Positions 9,465 through 19,793 of a stretch of DNA of 47,736 bases are shown here, piece by piece; position 1 is the stretch's first letter; each line of letters opens with the position of its first letter. Below the pieces are notes generated by a model. The model was not told the origin of the DNA and searched no databases. It was given only the letters and a program-made list of their open reading frames with translations. The position numbers and the translations under genes were made by a program. This DNA comes from Bacillota bacterium. GTDB lineage: Bacteria > Bacillota > Sulfobacillia > Sulfobacillales > JAIMBI01. The stretch spans positions 1 to 47,736 of the forward strand of contig JAJZWV010000022.1 of NCBI GenBank assembly GCA_021846505.1. The letters run 5' to 3'.

Positions 9465-9911
9465 ATGACGCAAGAGCAGCAGCAGGTGGTGGAGATGCTG
9501 GCCGAAGGCCGCATCAGCCAAGACGAGGCGCTTCGCCTCTACGCCGCGCTGGACCTGGATCCTGACGCGTACCAAAGCTCCGACGCCCAGGAGCGACTCC
9601 GCCGCCGACTGCAGGAGGTGGCGGGCAGCGCCCCGCCGGCCGAGCACGCGGCGGCTTCGGATGCGCCATCCGCCCAGCCGCAACATGTCCGCATCCGGGT
9701 GTCCTCCCACGGTGGTGACCGAGTCACCATTCGCCTGCCCATCGGGTTGGCCACCCAGCTGGCCCGCTGGATCCCCGGCCGGCGGGTCTGGGTAAACGGC
9801 AGTCCCATGCCGGTCGAGGAGCTGCTGCGCGAGCTCAATACCGCCCGCGTCGGCCAGATTGTCGAAGTGGACAGCGAGCAGGGTGACCGTGTCGTCATCA
9901 CCCTGGAGTAG
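9465..9911 (+). CDS. YvlB-like protein with SHOCT-like N-terminal domain
   Basis: A 148-aa protein. The N-terminus, QQQVVEMLAEGRISQDEAL (residues 5-23), is the short two-helix SHOCT-like module (MLxxGKIsxeEA) found in YvlB and many envelope-stress proteins. A proline/alanine linker follows to about 75, then a beta-rich C-terminal half (VRIRVSSHGGDRVTIRLPIG and IVEVDSEQGDRVVITLE). In Bacillus, YvlB belongs to a LiaFSR/sigma-W type envelope-stress set; here the gene is alone. The start ATG at 9465 follows TAGGAGG. No membrane segment is seen, so it is likely cytoplasmic. Confidence 0.7.
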   Translation: MTQEQQQVVEMLAEGRISQDEALRLYAALDLDPDAYQSSDAQERLRRRLQEVAGSAPPAEHAAASDAPSAQPQHVRIRVSSHGGDRVTIRLPIGLATQLARWIPGRRVWVNGSPMPVEELLRELNTARVGQIVEVDSEQGDRVVITLE

Positions 9912-9922
9912 ACAAGCAGAAG

Positions 9923-9948
9923 GCCGGGCGCCAGGGGAGGCGCCCGGC
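9923..9948. terminator. GC-rich hairpin between convergent genes
   Basis: A perfect 10-bp stem (GCCGGGCGCC pairing with GGCGCCCGGC) encloses an AGGGGA loop, directly between the ends of the YvlB-like gene and the selenoglutaredoxin gene. There is no U-run on either strand, so it may end transcription weakly or protect the 3' ends in both directions. Confidence 0.6.
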
Positions 9949-9951
9949 TCG

Positions 9952-10197
9952 CTAGGATCGGGCTGCCAGGACGCCGCCGAACACCGCCGGGGTAAACACC
10001 CCGCCGGCCATCACCACGCGCTCATCCACCAAAATCGTCGGATTGCCGCCATCCGACAGCGCGAGCCACCGCTCGCGGGCCTCCTCGTCCACGGTCACAT
10101 CGAAGTACGTGAACGGGTAGCCGTTTTGCGAAAGCCACGCTTTCGCTCCGATGCAGTCCCCTCAGGTAGGCGTCCCGTAAATCACAATGGATGGCAT
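9952..10197 (-). CDS. selenocysteine-containing glutaredoxin (UGA at codon 12)
   Basis: Read with TGA at 10164-10162 as selenocysteine, this is an 81-aa glutaredoxin/NrdH-like thiol oxidoreductase. It starts MPSIVIYGTPT, then the active site U12-G-D-C15 in place of the usual CPxC, then WLSQNGYPFTYFDVT, the cis-proline segment GGNPTILVDERVV, and a C-terminal helix. The start ATG at 10197 has GGAGGA at 6-base spacing, and the frame is open from the start to TAG at 9952 except for this TGA. A perfect hairpin begins 15 bases after the TGA. A tRNA-Sec gene lies in the same window. The alternative, a nonsense mutation of a TGC/TGT codon, would have to hit exactly the catalytic cysteine. Confidence 0.87.
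10128..10146 (-). promoter_or_regulatory. candidate bacterial SECIS hairpin
   Basis: On the coding (reverse) strand GCGAAAGC-GTG-GCTTTCGC forms a perfect 8-bp stem with a 3-base loop that starts with G. It begins 15 bases after the in-frame TGA, placing the apical loop 23 bases from it. That agrees with what I recall of the bacterial SECIS model: a stem-loop just after UGA with a G in the first loop positions, bound by SelB. It lies within the coding region, as bacterial SECIS elements do. Confidence 0.82.
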
Positions 10198-10901: not shown

Positions 10902-12158
10902 TTATTCGGGCACCAGGATGTTGCTCTGCCAGATGGGGCGGGCGAGTAGGCTAAAGAGCAGCGCCAGTACGCTGGATACGCCCACGGTCAGAAAGCCCGC
11001 CGTCGGGAATCCGAGGGGCAGCAGCTTGGCGAAGATGGGGCCCCCGAGGAAGGCGCCGGCATTGAAGATGAGAAAGAGCCAGCCGGTGACACTCCCAGCA
11101 ATGGCGTCACGCGCGGAGTCCTGGCCCAGCGCCGCCACCAAGCTGGCATAGATCCCCCGGCCCGCGCCAAAGGACAACGTGAGCAGAACCAACAGCGCGA
11201 CGTTGGAGGACACGCTGAACATCCCCAGCCCCCCGATGGCCACCAGGACAGCGGACAGCACCACCCCCCACTTGCGGCCAAAGCGGTCCCCGAAGTATCC
11301 AATGGGGAAGGCGAAGAGAAACCCGCCCAGCCCCAACATCCCCACAATGCTGGCCCCGACGACTGATGGGAGTCCTAGGTGCTTCAAGAGATATTCCGAA
11401 TAGTAGCTGCCGACGCCAAACAGCGCAATCCCAAAGAACAATATAGAGAGGGATAGCAGGGTGACATTTCGATTCCAGAGACCTTTCAATCCGAACTGAT
11501 GCCGCTCCATCTTTTTGTAGACAGGTGGCAACACGATTTGGAACGCGATAAGCCCTATAACAGCAAGCAGCGCAGAAATAATGAAAGGAATGCGATAATT
11601 TGGCAGAAACGGGGCAATCACATATGGCCCTACCAATAGTCCTCCTCCGAAGAAGACCGCAAACGCAGAAACGGCTCTCCCCCGGGTTTCAAAGAAAATG
11701 TCGCCCATCAGTGCCAGGATGGCTGGCTGAAACACCCCAATGCCCACGCCCACTAGTGCCCTCGCCCCCAAAAGCTCGGCGGGGGTATTCACAAAGCCTG
11801 TCATCAGGGTGAACAGCGTAAAGAACGCAACCGATCCCATGACGGTGTACTTCACCGAGAACCGATCGAACAAGTAGCCACCGACGATGCTGAAAATGGC
11901 AATGCCGGCGGCATAGCTCGACGCTGCGGTCGCCAGAAGCGCCGCTGTGCCGTGTATCTGTTCGACGATAATCGGGGAGCCAAACAAGTAGAGATTGGAA
12001 TCAAAGCCTTCCAAGAAGGCCGGAATCGCGGCAATCAGCACAATGATGAGAAACGCCCGCCGACTCTGATGGGCAACAGTCCTGACGGTGACCGTGCCCG
12101 GCTCCCGAATCCCTTGCTTGCTCAATCGCCTCCCGCCTTTCTCGCATCGCGTCCACAC
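10902..12158 (-). CDS. MFS transporter
   Basis: A major facilitator superfamily carrier of up to 418 aa with about 12 hydrophobic helices. The loop 2-3 motif is seen as GGYLFDRFSVKY, and its repeat in the second half as GYFGDRFGRKWG. Such carriers move small organic solutes by proton coupling. It follows the M20 amidohydrolase gene by about 50 bases and is probably co-transcribed with it, suggesting uptake of an amide- or peptide-like substrate. The start is uncertain: GTG 12158, or TTG 12122 close to a GGGAGG. The sequence is visibly richer in A/T than its neighbours, a possible sign of transfer. Confidence 0.85.
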   Translation of the reverse strand: MWTRCEKGGRRLSKQGIREPGTVTVRTVAHQSRRAFLIIVLIAAIPAFLEGFDSNLYLFGSPIIVEQIHGTAALLATAASSYAAGIAIFSIVGGYLFDRFSVKYTVMGSVAFFTLFTLMTGFVNTPAELLGARALVGVGIGVFQPAILALMGDIFFETRGRAVSAFAVFFGGGLLVGPYVIAPFLPNYRIPFIISALLAVIGLIAFQIVLPPVYKKMERHQFGLKGLWNRNVTLLSLSILFFGIALFGVGSYYSEYLLKHLGLPSVVGASIVGMLGLGGFLFAFPIGYFGDRFGRKWGVVLSAVLVAIGGLGMFSVSSNVALLVLLTLSFGAGRGIYASLVAALGQDSARDAIAGSVTGWLFLIFNAGAFLGGPIFAKLLPLGFPTAGFLTVGVSSVLALLFSLLARPIWQSNILVPE

Positions 12159-12208
12159 GCTGCTCGCCGCTGGTTGAGGCCATGTTCGCGCCCCGAGCCC
12201 CGAGGCGC

Positions 12209-13408
12209 TCAGCGGGAGCTCTCTTCCACATAGAGGCTGGCAGCTCGGGCCAGTGCGTAGGCGGCATCCCCGACCGCGGCATCGCCCTTCGGGCCGATAG
12301 CCGCTGCCGCAAACTCACGGGTGTGAGGAACCAGGCCCGTCCCAATGCCGATGTTGGCGTGAAGGCTCGGCACGCGGTGGCTTACGTTGCCCATATCGGT
12401 CGAACCCAGTGGCGGCCCCCCTTCGATAGGGTTCCGCCCTCGCTCCTTAAGAACCCGCTCCAGGAAAGCGGCCAGCGCCGCATCTTGCTCAACATTCTCG
12501 TAAAGCGGGACAAACCGCTCCCACGCCATGCGGCACCCGGTTCCCGCGGCCGCGCTCTCGGCCGCGCGCACCACCTTGTCCAGGACCGCCGCGGTCACCG
12601 CCTTGTCTGGCCCCCGCACCAGCATCCGGGCCGCCGCAAAGGCCGGCACCACGTTGGGAGAGGTTCCGCCATGCGTAATGATGCCATGGACTTTGCTGGT
12701 GGGGTCGAGGTGGCTCCTCAAGGCGTCGATGAAGTGAAACCAGAGCAACACGGCCGACAAGGCGTTGATGCCCTCTTCCGGTGCTGCCGCAAAGTGGGCC
12801 TCCTTGCCGTAGAAGCTGACCTCGATGCCTTCCCGGCACAGGTAGGCCGGGGCGGCCTCATCGGCCGCCGACGGATGGGCCATGAGCGCCACGGACAGAG
12901 GGTCCAGCACCCCCGCGTCCAGCAGCTTCACCTTGCCCCCGCCTCCTTCCTCACCGGGACTCCCGACCACCCAAACTTCCGCGGAGCGCTGGGTGGCTTC
13001 GATCCAATCCGCCAGCAAGATGCCGGCGCCCACCGACGAGGCCGCGATGATGTTGTGCCCGCAGGCATGTCCGATGTCCGGCAAGGCGTCATACTCGGCG
13101 AAAAACCCGACAATCGGGAGACCGCGGCCGCGTCGGGCGATAAAGCTGGTGGGCATGTCCGCAAGGCCACGCTCTACGACGAATCCGTGAGCCTCCAGCA
13201 TCCGCGCCAACTCGCGGCTGGAGCGCACTTCCTCAAAGCGGGTTTCATGAAAGGCGTGGATCGTATGGCTCAAGTGCAGGAGCTCCGGGGTCAGCGCCGC
13301 CAGCCTGTCGTGCAGCAGGTTCTCCGTATCGTCCACCTCCAGGACACATCCGGCGCGATGGCCAACGGTGAGAATTTCTCGAATGGAAAGCGGAATTCCC
13401 GAAGCCAC
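12209..13408 (-). CDS. M20-family amidohydrolase/peptidase (AbgB-like)
   Basis: A metal-dependent hydrolase of about 399 aa. Metal ligands are visible as DIGHACGHN (residues 111-119) and the SPGEEGGGG acidic pair (153-154). The lid-domain segment KEAHFAAAPEEGINAL and STDMGNVSHRVPSLH near the C-terminus match the AbgB/p-aminobenzoyl-glutamate hydrolase branch. It cleaves N-acyl or amide bonds in the cytoplasm. The first part (to about residue 25) has no good ribosome site; a GTG at 13336 preceded by CTGGAG is a possible later start. A TATAGT -10 candidate lies near 13413. The pairing with an MFS carrier resembles abg systems, where AbgB works with an importer. Confidence 0.85.
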   Translation of the reverse strand: MASGIPLSIREILTVGHRAGCVLEVDDTENLLHDRLAALTPELLHLSHTIHAFHETRFEEVRSSRELARMLEAHGFVVERGLADMPTSFIARRGRGLPIVGFFAEYDALPDIGHACGHNIIAASSVGAGILLADWIEATQRSAEVWVVGSPGEEGGGGKVKLLDAGVLDPLSVALMAHPSAADEAAPAYLCREGIEVSFYGKEAHFAAAPEEGINALSAVLLWFHFIDALRSHLDPTSKVHGIITHGGTSPNVVPAFAAARMLVRGPDKAVTAAVLDKVVRAAESAAAGTGCRMAWERFVPLYENVEQDAALAAFLERVLKERGRNPIEGGPPLGSTDMGNVSHRVPSLHANIGIGTGLVPHTREFAAAAIGPKGDAAVGDAAYALARAASLYVEESSR

Positions 13409-19699: not shown

Positions 19700-19793
19700 T
19701 GGCGGGAGTATGTGGGAATCGAACCCACCGCCGACCGCCGGCCGGCCATCGGATTTGAAGTCCGTGGAAGGCACCAGTCCTCCATCTACCCCC
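19700..19793 (-). tRNA. selC: tRNA-Sec (anticodon UCA)
   Basis: A 94-base tRNA with selenocysteine-specific features. It has a long acceptor stem (GGGGGTAG with ATACTCCC, seven pairs plus one mismatch at the eighth), a D-stem GGAGG/CCTTCC, and an anticodon stem-loop CGGA-CTTCAAA-TCCG with anticodon TCA (complement of 19756-19758). A long variable arm (GCCGGCC/GGTCGGC, 7 bp) and a T-arm GTGGG-TTCGATT-CCCAC follow. The discriminator G and CCA are encoded. The anticodon loop is the same as in E. coli selC. It reads UGA as selenocysteine with SelB. Confidence 0.95.

Follow-up and report, generated by a model that had tools for sequence, protein, structure and literature searches.

The glutaredoxin cGrx1 of Clostridium (Alkaliphilus) oremlandii carries selenocysteine (Sec) in what we take to be its natural form. 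Glutaredoxins figured in an early list of selenoproteins (PMC1794560), and the UxxC glutaredoxin, where U is Sec, is counted in a recent review among the experimentally verified selenoproteins (PMC13188914). The gene described here almost certainly encodes a selenoprotein as well. Very probably the product is a small dithiol-type protein of the glutaredoxin fold, with an N-terminal catalytic Sec inserted through decoding of UGA by way of a SECIS element and SelB. The gene lies within a window of 47,736 nucleotides, the whole stretch of DNA analyzed, which is part of a draft genome of an uncultured Bacillota bacterium (3.58 Mb, 119 contigs, 96% complete). The pertinent features of the window are:

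9952..10197, minus strand: predicted selenoglutaredoxin coding sequence, 81 amino acids plus TAG stop (translation with TGA as U; PF00462, 46.3 bits; TGA-bearing orthologues)
10162..10164, minus strand: in-frame UGA, codon 12, predicted Sec and first active-site residue of U-G-D-C (in Cys homologues and solved redoxins, the active-site Cys aligns here)
10128..10146, minus strand: putative bacterial SECIS hairpin (pairing, covariation, and the constraints of a published model, PMC13188914)
10204..10208, minus strand: ribosome binding site GGAGG, 6 nt 5' of the ATG (sequence)
9923..9948, minus strand: hairpin resembling an intrinsic terminator, 10 G-C pairs, between convergent genes
19704..19793, minus strand: tRNA-Sec gene (selC), anticodon UCA (Rfam RF01852, 67.8 bits against a cut-off of 47; ARAGORN)

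The reading frame and its product

An earlier, sequence-only reading of this DNA had proposed an 81-codon frame behind a strong ribosome site, and both are there: the frame runs on the minus strand from an ATG at 10197-10195 to a TAG at 9954-9952, with GGAGG 6 nt upstream. A promoter-like site lies 58-86 bases 5' of the gene. With U at the TGA, the predicted product is MPSIVIYGTPTUGDCIGAKAWLSQNGYPFTYFDVTVDEEARERWLALSDGGNPTILVDERVVMAGGVFTPAVFGGVLAARS. The earlier reading named no strand; the plus-strand reading of 9952-10197 is meaningless, the frame being that of the minus strand, and it was rejected. If the UGA is not read through, the frame yields only a 53-amino-acid N-terminal fragment (from the longest start) and a 48-amino-acid fragment starting at GTG, just as had been anticipated in the remark that gene finders would miss or truncate the gene. 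No Pfam family matches the long plus-strand frames that overlap the gene or the one minus-strand frame upstream. The conventional overlapping frames were rejected as real genes for that reason, and to have called them shadows was fair.

With U12 read as C, residues 4-61 match the Glutaredoxin family PF00462 with 46.3 bits, against a gathering threshold of 22.9 (E = 4.9e-12). The match spans the position of the TGA, so the proposal that a glutaredoxin is encoded across that codon held good. Of the solved redoxins, the best match by sequence is BC3987 of Bacillus cereus (E = 1.1e-6), and cGrx1 of C. oremlandii is matched with E = 9.5e-6. In the alignment with BC3987, and in the PDB matches, residue 12 falls on the catalytic Cys, and a potential resolving residue, Cys15, stands three residues past U12. 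An AlphaFold2 model (four orthologues; mean pLDDT 85) places a strand at residues 4-8 and a helix at 13-24. The order of strands and helices in the model is thioredoxin-like, the catalytic residue opens helix 1, and the top fold neighbors in the PDB are again BC3987 (TM 0.79) and cGrx1 (TM 0.74).

The two fragments produced by naive annotation might be regarded as the remains of a decaying pseudogene in which the TGA is a true stop. However, the ribosome site and terminator are intact, the gene is conserved over two genera, and dN/dS past the UGA is low, about 0.1-0.2 (by the NG86 method about 0.10-0.14 against the three genus relatives). In that region, comparison of the window gene with the genus relatives gives dN of 0.11-0.13 and dS of 0.95-1.14, so the sequence beyond the TGA is under selection at the level of protein. 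Decay of the gene is therefore extremely improbable.

Conservation of the UGA, the hairpin, and the machinery of Sec insertion

The TGA occupies the same codon in five orthologues (G001-G004 and G006), which come from the same genus and family and whose proteins are 63-82% identical to that of the window: about 81-82% for three genus relatives and 63-68% for both of the sampled genomes of a sister genus. Three of these orthologues were found again in named Bacillota MAGs. The active-site motif is UGDC within the genus and USDC within its sister, and the spacers of other homologues are GA, GG, SG, PH, or PW. The GD between the active residues, thought at the outset to be unusual, is indeed particular to a small subgroup, within which UGDC marks the genus, but it does not extend to the sister genus. 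In more distant homologues, from the order and the phylum, the U12 column holds a TGA in some and a Cys codon in others. Of 38 sequences examined, 12 have Cys there, and UGA occurs in the five orthologues and many paralogues. The placement of the TGA at the first active-site cysteine, codon 12, is thereby confirmed, and the search that had been suggested for Cys-containing homologues aligning at U12 gave the result hoped for. No Cys form of the exact UxDC subgroup was found; Cys appears only in the more distant homologues. Nor was the subgroup found beyond the two genera in 398 genomes of the phylum, the next best match scoring 50 bits as opposed to 161. Selenoglutaredoxins in the wider sense are another matter. 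The same genome carries two more TGA-containing glutaredoxin-like genes, L047 (G000:C61) and L048 (G000:C31), with the motifs UGGC and UGAC, and many more relatives with a TGA turned up in the sample of the Bacillota phylum. To have called them rare was an overstatement.

A TGA lies one base from TGC or TGT, and the assembly is a draft; the codon might then be an error of sequencing or assembly in the gene of an ordinary Cys glutaredoxin. But five other assemblies have the same TGA, in genes whose proteins are 63-82% identical, and the TGA is accompanied by a covarying hairpin, absent from Cys homologues. Because independent genomes share the TGA, this explanation is in practice refuted.

The hairpin consists of GCGAAAGC-GUG-GCUUUCGC, that is, 8 base pairs and a 3-nt loop beginning with G, the loop lying 23 nt past the UGA. 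Bacterial SECIS elements have been described as having a loop of 3-9 nt, a stem of 4-16 bp, a G in one of the first two positions of the loop, a distance of 16-37 nt from the UGA, and a minimum free energy of at most -7.5 kcal/mol (PMC13188914). The hairpin falls within all of these bounds, with a minimum free energy of -14.6 kcal/mol for a 51-nt stretch. Taken by itself, the hairpin of the window is not significant: folding of the single sequence gave a z score of about -1.3 relative to shuffled sequences, and 8% of random synonymous recodings contained a stem as long (P = 0.083). The argument for the hairpin is therefore comparative only. In 19 TGA homologues, selected for having the hairpin in this register, 96.7% of the cells are paired, as against at most 61% in slid controls, and 12 cells show double changes. 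The covariation score of these same sequences is 0.295; shuffled alignments score 0.130, with none of the 500 reaching the observed value, and slid ones score no more than 0.148. Of 26 TGA homologues, 19 form at least seven of the eight pairs; of 12 Cys homologues, none does (Fisher p = 3.7e-5, a value that ignores relatedness). The remaining 7 of the 26 lack the hairpin in this register, and 3 of them have a 7-bp hairpin elsewhere. The SECIS also appears to influence the protein sequence: with one pairing, residues 20-21 are A-W, and with the compensating one, E-F. Two Cys glutaredoxins of the same order (L026 and L027) keep the inner six pairs of the hairpin. Judged by sequence, this remnant looks like the relic of a Sec ancestor, as if the change from Sec to Cys had been recent.

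Absence of selA, selB, and selD from the genome would have told against Sec, but SelA (508 bits), SelB (320 bits), and SelD (354 bits) were all found in the same draft genome, each above its cut-off. Together with the tRNA-Sec they make a complete set. The gene for the tRNA sits in the window, 9.5 kb from that of the selenoglutaredoxin; selA, selB, and selD lie apart from it, on other contigs. The SelD of this genome (L063, G000:C27:8040-8969) has an in-frame TGA of its own, in SGUGCKLG, and is itself a predicted selenoprotein; a hairpin, GGUCC-GGC-GGACC, lies 3' of that UGA. There is also a weak SelB/GTPase-like match (L007, G000:C80:95983-96354) with one TGA within its frame.

The frame by itself does not say what residue is inserted, and one might imagine UGA decoded as something other than Sec, either through a change of the code to Trp or Gly or through general near-cognate readthrough. 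TGA, however, is the normal stop of other genes in the window (4 of the 11 checked, with an internal stop in none of the 11), which argues against a general change of code. The complete Sec machinery weighs against this idea too, as do the homologues, which have Cys at the position, not Trp or Gly, and we consider it very improbable. The identification of the gene as a selenoglutaredoxin thus draws support from homology, the conserved TGA, the Cys counterparts, the covarying hairpin, and the full machinery of Sec insertion.

Predicted mechanism and genomic surroundings

According to the mechanism suggested by the anatomy of the gene and the machinery of the genome, the SECIS-like hairpin 23 nt past the UGA would be bound by SelB carrying Sec-tRNA-Sec, and the UGA at codon 12 would then be decoded as Sec. 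If the protein follows the chemistry of its family, the selenolate would attack a disulfide or other oxidized group of the substrate, and Cys15 would resolve the intermediate, as in CxxC glutaredoxins. Re-reduction would more likely be by thioredoxin reductase, as with NrdH, than by glutathione, since genes for thiol synthesis were not found and thioredoxin reductase is present (374 bits, above the cut-off). The draft genome yielded no GCS2 or Glu_cys_ligase (first step of glutathione synthesis) and no BshC (bacillithiol), and at 96% completeness their absence is not final. The failure to find GCS2 or Glu_cys_ligase is also indirectly unfavorable to glutathione-dependent thiol-disulfide exchange by the predicted protein.

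Perhaps the selenoprotein is instead a glutathione-dependent glutaredoxin, or a ligand of metals or organometals as suggested for UXX-star proteins, and not a dithiol redoxin linked to thioredoxin reductase. UXX-star is among the nearest NCBIfam models (41 bits), Sec residues of UXX-star proteins may bind metals (PMC13188914), and a second glutaredoxin of C. oremlandii, cGrx2, was solved with glutathione bound (4tr1). But the score falls short of the UXX-star cut-off of 66 bits, UxxC with a resolving Cys favors dithiol chemistry, and gamma-glutamylcysteine ligase was not found in the genome. On balance we think this alternative rather unlikely, and a dithiol redoxin served by thioredoxin reductase is the reading we prefer.

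The surroundings of the gene say little about function. Its neighbors in the genus, an acyl-CoA dehydrogenase gene and an unannotated convergent open reading frame of 148 codons, are uninformative, and the neighbors of the orthologue in the sister genus are different; genomic context was set aside as a functional clue on both counts. The convergent frame (window 9465-9911, plus strand) is about 50% identical across the genus and has no Pfam match. Window 10902-13408 (minus strand), between the glutaredoxin gene and the peptide-transporter permease genes, carries an MFS transporter gene and a gene for an M20 amidohydrolase. Neither was found at the corresponding position in the three genus relatives, which suggests that the difference is lineage-specific.

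About 110 nt downstream of the sister-genus orthologue is a TGA-containing gene for a flavoprotein that resembles CoA-disulfide reductase, a second selenoprotein, with the motif SSUGIPY:

L095:5276-6628, sister genus: SSUGIPY flavoprotein gene
G006:C238:5976-7325, sister genus: SSUGIPY flavoprotein gene

No orthologue of the flavoprotein was found in the genome under study. A fixed partnership of the two proteins is accordingly unsupported here, and any partnership would be at most lineage-specific. One might nonetheless speculate, as a long shot, that the subfamily defined by UxDC...GNPT...MAGGVFTP, confined to a pair of genera within a single Bacillota family and invariably carrying Sec, serves as a dedicated Sec-based reductant of disulfides of CoA or other small thiols in cells that lack glutathione and bacillithiol, acting in the sister genus beside the SSUGIPY selenoenzyme.

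Comparison with known redoxins

This gene is a clean example of those lost to standard annotation, whether by splitting or by omission. In parts of the Bacillota, as the survey shows, TGA-containing glutaredoxins are common. The window protein and its subgroup fall below the cut-offs of all NCBIfam models, those for UXX-star (NF041212, NF041114, and NF041211) included; with a new annotation model the subgroup would be recovered.

The UXX-star models describe a glutaredoxin-like family that includes Sec proteins, and all six members of the subgroup match NF041212 (best E = 1.5e-12), but the window protein attains only 41.1 bits with that model, for which the curated cut-off is 66. The highest NCBIfam score, 42.1 bits, is with the YruB family (TIGR02196), where the curated cut-off is 88.55, and the protein lacks the C-terminal GFD or GFN segment that most of the homologues have. 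The gene was filed under neither family, the curated cut-offs not being reached. BC3987 (PDB 3zij/3zit), a thioredoxin-like protein considered here alongside the NrdH redoxins, is the closest solved protein in both sequence and fold, but it is a Cys protein with CPPC and no Sec. The selenoprotein cGrx1 (PDB 7c10/7c12/7c13) shares the PF00462 fold (E = 9.5e-6, TM 0.74) but is only about 28% identical over the structural alignment, and the window protein differs from it in having U-G-D-C, a GNPT segment at the cis-Pro, and the tail MAGGVFTP. Selenoprotein glutaredoxins with UxxC were thus already known. To these, as far as sequence can tell, the UxDC/MAGGVFTP subgroup would be an addition, seen only in two genera.
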